From the NCBI RefSeq assembly GCF_021390675.1, contig NZ_JAJEJV010000004.1, positions 3,162,001 to 3,226,000 on the forward strand: DNA of 64,000 nt, in the 5' to 3' direction. Positions 518 to 800 of this stretch are shown piece after piece. The notes under the pieces were generated by a model. The model worked only from the letters and a program-made list of their open reading frames with translations. It did no database searches and was not told where the DNA came from. A program made the translations under genes and the position numbers. The stretch is from Dyella sp. 2HG41-7. Lineage in GTDB: Bacteria; Pseudomonadota; Gammaproteobacteria; Xanthomonadales; Rhodanobacteraceae. Each line of letters begins with the position of its first letter. Position 1 is the stretch's first letter.

Positions 518-800
518 CCGGCGCAAAGCGCCGGCACAAAGTGCGCGCCAGGAAGGCGCGCCGCTCTTCCCGGGGTCCCTTGGGTGTGGTGAAGGGCTGG
601 CGGATCAGGCCTCGTAGGGGGCATGGGCATGGATGCCCATGCCTTTTCGTCAGCACAGGATGTGCTGTCGAAAAGCCCCGCCAGTCCTTCACGGACTTGG
701 CGGGCAGGACGCCCGCCAAGCGCACCCTCGGGGGTGCCCTTCTCTTTGGTTACTTTCTCTTGGGCAAGCAAGAGAAAGTGACTCGGTCCTTCAGGACCGA
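518..800 (+). repeat. Multi-hairpin intergenic element with GGA in or beside the loops
   Basis: No credible gene lies between 516 and 1013. Instead there is a run of strong stem-loops: 518-534 (7-bp stem, loop AAA), 543-561 (7-bp stem, loop AGGAA), 620-643 (11-bp stem around ATGGAT), 643-675 (15-bp stem with one mismatch, tip CACAGGATGTG), 677-704 (11-bp stem with one bulge, ACGGA at the tip), 699-717 (7-bp stem, loop AGGAC), 752-779 (perfect 11-bp stem) and 784-799 (stem with CAGGAC). From memory, composite hairpin blocks containing the TTTGGTTACTTTCTC palindrome are dispersed through Xanthomonad intergenic DNA. The coding-like frames here are by-products of the repeat. See findings for a possible RsmA/CsrA link. 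Confidence 0.7.

Follow-up and report, generated by a model that had tools for sequence, protein, structure and literature searches.

Is the chain of hairpins that lies immediately behind a small gene of Dyella sp. 2HG41-7, with GGA exposed in several of its loops, an RNA of the kind that takes up the regulator CsrA (RsmA)? CsrB/CsrC and RsmX/Y/Z, the RNAs with which such a chain invites comparison, are single-locus genes under Gac/BarA control. The Dyella genome has one match to CsrA (PF02599, 91.5 bits), a protein of 70 residues of which residues 1-51 align closely with solved CsrA chains. In Xanthomonas, homologues of CsrB/RsmB are reported to be missing in two papers on CsrA/RsmA (PMC3937308, PMC7286519), one of which suggests an undiscovered mechanism, and among the titles and abstract openings listed by searches of open-licence PMC texts none describes the present repeat as a CsrA site. 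The window analyzed here is a stretch of 64,000 nucleotides of the Dyella genome, and the hairpin chain is found at its positions 518-800, where an initial annotation of the sequence had placed it.

The Hairpin Chain and Its Predicted Fold

The + strand of positions 500-820 folds at -193.4 kcal/mol, as compared with -139.1 kcal/mol for shuffled sequences (standard deviation 5.9, n = 100; z = -9.3), and none of the 100 shuffles reaches the folding energy of the real sequence; the - strand of the same segment gives z = -8.2. The chain consists of seven strong hairpins (518-534, 543-561, 621-642, 643-675, 696-720, about 748-782 and 783-800), to which an extra, weak stem-loop at 722-737 can be added. 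The initial annotation had seen eight stem-loops, six of them with GGA in or beside the loop; the chain itself stands, but the number of hairpin loops that carry the motif falls to four. Between 511 and 805 GGA occurs seven times (at 551, 602, 631, 658, 693, 707 and 794), and the four occurrences within hairpin loops are those at 551, 631, 658 and 707. The GGA at 693, previously taken for a loop of the form ACGGA, belongs to a linker and to no hairpin loop, and the one at 794, previously the last loop of the series (CAGGAC), is paired in the stem of the hairpin 783-800, adjoining its loop. The remaining GGA, at 602, coincides in part with the end of a long-range helix, P2, and begins a joining segment.

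A single domain is predicted, in which a helix P1 (581-587 paired with 722-728) surrounds P2 (589-603 paired with 678-692), and P2 in turn surrounds two hairpins, H4 (621-642, loop ATGGAT, GGA at 631-633) and H5 (643-675, ACAGGATGT, GGA at 658-660). The joining segment (602-620, GGATCAGGCC...GGGG) recurs in many copies of the element, its conservation having been judged by eye. H6 (696-720, loop AGGAC, GGA at 707-709) follows P2 and precedes the 3' strand of P1, and a fourth GGA hairpin, H2 (543-561, loop AGGAA, GGA at 551-553), is found at the 5' side of the domain. Three further hairpins serve as controls: H1 (518-534, loop AAA), a palindrome (748-782, GGTTACTTTCTCTTG...CAAGAGAAAGTGAC, loop GGCAAG) and the terminal hairpin H8 (783-800, loop TTCA). 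All of these features are on the + strand and together they form one arm of a dispersed element (516-800), the limits of which are indicated by three full copies in the same genome and by the TGA junction seen on comparison with relatives without the arm.

Hairpins of this type are infrequent in background DNA. A background of 464 kb (the window minus the element, plus 400 kb of genome G063) contains 273 strong hairpins, one of which proved to be a copy of the element and was set aside; among the remaining 272, A(N)GGA is present in 3 and its complement in 5 (8/272 for either), and at 4/272 per strand the probability of finding A(N)GGA in at least four of seven hairpins is 1.6e-6.

Conservation of the Loops

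Four alignments of the element were compared. A1 comprises the 32 of 44 cores left after the removal of near duplicates, and since its filter required the GGA of H5, its H5 counts are no evidence; it was not aligned to a model, though most of its structure string was taken from the fold of the window copy. A2, with 61 copies that represent other genera of the bacterial family, A3, with 35 copies from outside the family, and A4, with 18 copies, were found with, and aligned to, a model that rewards GGA, and hence they are biased toward that model; A4 represents the 12 weakest of 30 family loci, which had first been omitted from A2, and it lowers the A(N)GGA counts. With this reservation, the motif is present at H4 in 59/61 copies of A2, 16/17 of A4 and 35/35 of A3, at H5 in 61/61, 15/18 and 33/35, respectively, and at H6 in 39/58, 3/15 and 6/20. 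In A1 the H4 columns (n = 32) read A in 31 sequences, followed by any one of T, G, C and A or by no base, and after that G in 28, G in 31 and A in 31; the base that precedes the loop GGA can thus be any of the four or absent.

Two counts that were made without a GGA requirement matter here, since GGA is rewarded by the models and required by one filter. The first is a tally within the genus of arms picked by the stem of H5 regardless of its loop, in which A(N)GGA occurs in 37/37 H5 hairpins, 18/18 H4, 13/26 H2 and 12/22 H6, and in none of the controls (H1 0/17, palindrome 0/38, H8 0/30); only strong, non-overlapping hairpins enter this tally, which leaves 18 arms for the score of H4 and 37 for that of H5. 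In the second, an H5 pattern with GGA left free has 87 matches, every one of which carries GGA or its complement. The initial annotation had staked its proposal on the loop GGA being better conserved than other loop bases, and GGA is indeed nearly fixed in H4 and H5 while the control loops are devoid of A(N)GGA. Conservation across copies of several A(N)GGA hairpin loops, the property looked for in RNAs of the CsrB/Rsm type, is therefore found for H4 and H5 and partly for H2 and H6, where only a fraction of the copies retain the motif. The common form of the loop, CA(N)GGA(N)G, is that of the CsrA/RsmE optimum, and the loops of the element fit the CsrA/RsmA site; H5 (ACAGGATGT) agrees with the selected ligand ACARGGAUGU to which the initial annotation had referred.

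Covariation of the Stems

The stems have been rewritten by compensatory changes in all four alignments, as had been asked of the proposal from the outset. The covariation score is 0.380 in A1 (shuffled 0.153, largest slid control 0.117), 0.559 in A2 (0.166 and 0.085), 0.557 in A3 (0.127 and 0.080) and 0.635 in A4 (0.153 and 0.092). Two-sided changes occur in 6/6 pairs of P1 (A1 columns 16-22/162-168) and in 12/15 pairs of P2. Within P2, G-U pairs exceed A-C by 38:5 in A2 and 20:2 in A3, an excess that is absent in A1 (29:24); to judge from these substitutions, the signal leans towards a GGA strand that folds as RNA. The pairs of H4 and H5 are almost all Watson-Crick, with few G-U or A-C.

Dispersal of the Element

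That the block belongs to a dispersed repeat had been a supposition of the initial annotation, and it is confirmed by copies in the same genome, in the genus and in the bacterial family. Of the three full copies in the Dyella genome, two are arranged head to head with some 60 bases between them, and the 283-base block is matched in 15 of 16 genus genomes. The arms often occur as outward-reading inverted pairs, each arm closing with the palindrome and a further hairpin; single arms are also numerous. R1, a covariance model of the core built from 32 dereplicated arms, matches at least 184 of 233 genomes of the family, in 23 of 26 genera, at a minimum of 2 to 72 places in each of 30 chosen matching genomes; it matches 27 of 370 genomes of the class (Dyella sp. 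2HG41-7 included, the other 26 being outside the family) and 7 of 397 of the phylum, all seven inside the class, and since the scoring covered 13, 8 and 7 candidates per genome at these three levels, the copy numbers are floors and some misses may be false.

The named matches to a GGA-containing pattern come from Dyella, from Rhodanobacter and from metagenome bins assigned to the order or phylum of these genera. Phages gave no match to the element, and plasmids matched through the palindrome region only, at six places in one Ilyobacter record. This record is the I. polytropus plasmid pILYOP01, an AT-rich Fusobacterium replicon, in which the palindrome occurs with its left neighbor at the six places (e.g., L074:2501-2549); by eye, no GGA hairpins were seen beside the place that was inspected. 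A series of loci (L065-L073, from G007, G004, G002 and G010) has shorter inverted pairs with the palindrome and the terminal hairpin and without the GGA hairpins, which are likely a stripped-down relative of the element. In the consensus of the G063 copies, the arm is part of a larger nested repeat that has GTCATCCCGGC-type ends and contains further palindromes.

Comparison with Known RNA Classes

At the gathering threshold no Rfam model matches anywhere in the window. The closest resemblance in architecture is to TwoAYGGAY (RF01731, clan CL00106), which consists of two neighboring hairpins with loops of the CA(N)GGA(N)G type within a longer closing helix. The arrangement of an AYGGAY-like loop pair inside a closing helix is present in the element, P2 enclosing H4 and H5, and the letters agree in part: ATGGAT in H4 fits AYGGAY, and AGGAT in H5 is without the Y. 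The copy in the window is not filed as a member of the class because positions 480-900 do not match RF01731 (cut-off 43 bits) even at E 5; the same dispersed family nevertheless contains members. Outside the bacterial family, three loci exceed the 43-bit cut-off (L279 with 61.9 and 54 bits, L285 with 60.7 and 46.5, L291 with 55.1 and 52.6), and three fall below it (L290 with 39, L299 with 37.4, L283 with 33.9). Within the family, 2 of 59 genomes match at E 0.01 and the other 57 do not; G089 has at least 24 places, at least 8 of them over the cut-off, and G145 at least 5, at least 2 of them over. At least 13 of the 24 places in G089 coincide, on the same strand, with R1 places among the matches listed.

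TwoAYGGAY has been predicted to bind CsrA by Gardner and Eldai, who regard its validation as work in progress (PMC4333381), and by Weinberg and colleagues (PMC2864571) it is listed for the human gut, gamma-Proteobacteria and Clostridiales. To this class the repeat adds P1, H6, H2, the palindrome, the inverted pairing and the high copy number, none of which the available text describes for it. CsrB/CsrC and RsmX/Y/Z likewise consist of hairpins in series whose loops contain GGA; the present element differs from them as a dispersed repeat without a recognized promoter. When the Rfam models for CsrB/Rsm RNAs are applied to the elements, all scores are below threshold (RsmW, 21.4 to 33.2 bits against 52; RsmV, 24.3 against 100), and both RsmW and RsmV share clan CL00106 with TwoAYGGAY. 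Finally, the reverse strand of Bacillaceae-1 RNA (RF01690) is predicted in PMC4333381 to bind CsrA; one locus of the element (L105) does match this model on the strand opposite to GGA, but its score of 26.7 bits falls short of the cut-off (35).

A Proposed Dispersed RNA Domain With Predicted CsrA Sites

Taken together, the predicted structure, the covariation, the conservation of the loops, the head-to-head pairing, the dispersal and the presence of a CsrA gene support the explanation that we think somewhat probable, namely that the locus is an arm of a mobile-looking repeat which would contain a TwoAYGGAY-related RNA domain and, where transcribed, would display predicted CsrA sites. P1 and P2 would serve as a scaffold for two to four hairpins whose loops carry A(N)GGA; the GGA strand would be transcribed by read-through from neighboring genes or from an unseen promoter, CsrA/RsmA dimers could then bind pairs of GGA loops, and the transcribed copies might jointly sequester CsrA in the manner of CsrB/RsmY RNAs. 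An mRNA that has an arm as its 3' end could, in addition, recruit CsrA through it. A more far-reaching version, in which tens of scattered, transposable TwoAYGGAY-type arms replace a CsrB gene in this bacterial family and set the pool of free CsrA, so that a global regulator is tuned through transposition and copy number, is in our view rather unlikely; if it were true, the element itself would gain by binding CsrA, for example through protection of its own RNA or that of its cargo. Several observations count against the explanation that we favor: the failure of the window copy to reach TwoAYGGAY, the missing G-U excess of P2 in A1, the Watson-Crick character of H4 and H5, the partial conservation of GGA in H2 and H6, its lower counts in A3 and A4 and, as detailed below, the lack of a promoter-like site in 1-1020 and of co-orientation with the upstream gene and the absence of the arm beside typA in 13 of 16 genomes.

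Orientation, Possible Mobility and Candidate Cargo

The main rival explanation, an unlikely one in our estimation, is that the arm is a recombination signal in single-stranded DNA, comparable to attC or to the ends of IS200/IS605. An enzyme from elsewhere would read the hairpins and their loop bases, the arms would be the ends of cassettes, and GGA would be unrelated to CsrA. The best support for a mechanism of mobility through single-stranded DNA is the orientation of the copies in G063, which follows replication by 36:11 in 47 places (35:12 with another estimate of the origin), with the GGA strand pointing to an origin that was located from sampled GC skew. The almost purely Watson-Crick pairing of H4 and H5 is in keeping with such a signal, as is the finding that inverted arms flank single genes in several loci. 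Low-GC genes located between inverted arms, possibly the cargo of a cassette-like system, encode a DUF4760 protein (L306:1040-1519), a HAD hydrolase (L087:803-1399), two small proteins (L301:963-1868) and other products (L062:740-1615, L063:816-1631, L090:1818-2633), and in L107 the two arms that flank the gene point the same way. The cargo of L063 is also that of L090, and by eye their host neighbors are of one kind as well; the L063 contig may therefore not belong to the bin in which it is placed.

No recombinase, however, has been identified, and the lagging template in G063 would expose the TCC strand rather than GGA. The optional base of A(N)GGA fits CsrA, in A2 and A3 the helix P2 has more G-U than A-C, as expected of a folded transcript of the GGA strand, and some relatives are scored as members of an RNA family of the RsmV/RsmW clan; all of these weigh against a signal that is read solely as DNA. 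The core sites of integron attC are RYYYAAC and GTTRRRY, with which the GTTACTT of the palindrome does not agree by eye, and inspection by eye of the G063 copies revealed no target duplications. MITEs and mobile insertion cassettes are dispersed elements with inverted arms that can include passenger genes. The present element is like them in its dispersed copies, its inverted arms, the passenger genes of some loci and the lack of a visible transposase, but its arms have a conserved secondary structure some 300 bases long, and no link to a transposase was found.

Genomic Setting of the Arm

A purely local role is less probable still, and we would give it little weight: the arm would be a 3'-end structure that terminates or protects the transcripts of its neighbors or cargo, and any binding of CsrA would be local, with no sponge. 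The arm of the window does start directly 3' of the TGA (513-515) of a host gene (237-515, + strand) for an acidic protein of 92 residues, which has no Pfam match and which a fuzzy pattern recovered in seven of the remaining 15 genomes of the genus. Sites resembling terminators are present at 619-638, 722-737 and 730-742, but they are matches to a consensus only. More generally, the elements avoid divergent gaps, 2/60 (0/30 in G063 and 2/30 in the determined loci of the family) as compared with 42/180 for background gaps of 60 bases or more, and 25/60 are in convergent gaps as compared with 34/180; these counts omit 7 of 37 loci without two called neighbors, the genus loci and the pair in the Dyella genome itself, and their background comes from G063 only, with genes called by a simple caller.

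Against a local role, the other two copies of the Dyella genome are found in a divergent gap, between genes that point away from them, and no preference for co-orientation is seen. In G063 the element has the direction of its upstream gene in 22/30 cases, precisely what is expected from 14 convergent gaps and half of 16 codirectional ones, and selection for such co-orientation is accordingly unsupported. The suggestion of the initial annotation that the element could act as the 3' UTR of the acidic-protein gene loses ground by this result and by a consensus scan of positions 1-1020 of the window, in which no sigma-70-like promoter was found. The acidic-protein gene was also considered as cargo of the element and rejected, as seven relatives have the gene without an intact arm.

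On its other side, the arm ends about 190 bases upstream of the first start codon of typA. When the 1250 bases upstream of typA were searched in the 16 genus genomes, the H5 pattern was present in three (the Dyella genome, with one arm; G001; and G003, with both orientations) and absent from the other 13, and in one of these 13 (G011, L257) an apparent decayed remnant can be seen by eye in the same place. Since the arm is missing beside conserved genes in many relatives, it has been gained or lost next to these host genes and is dispensable to them, which is a further difficulty for a local role. typA is also flanked by intergenic repeats of the CCCTCTCCCC...GGGGAGAGGG type, at 884-908, a perfect inverted repeat of 12 bases, and at 2898-2935, the latter seen by eye.

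A neutral repeat, the copies of which are alike through recent descent, with palindromes kept via DNA repair and GGA loops without function, would be compatible with the close relationship of the G063 copies and with the decayed remnant at typA in G011, but it is already disfavored and appears very improbable, as the GGA persists where other loops and the stems diverge, also between families, and covariation extends to the long-range helices P1 and P2.

Possible Significance for CsrA Regulation

A repeat found throughout the family, with covarying hairpins and nearly fixed loops of the CsrA type, provides named and testable candidates, and it may be the kind of CsrA-absorbing RNA that these bacteria had appeared to lack. 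If so, the sponge RNA of a regulator would have been spread by mobile DNA, and an RNA class of unknown function would be extended to tens of copies per genome and linked to inverted, cargo-flanking elements.
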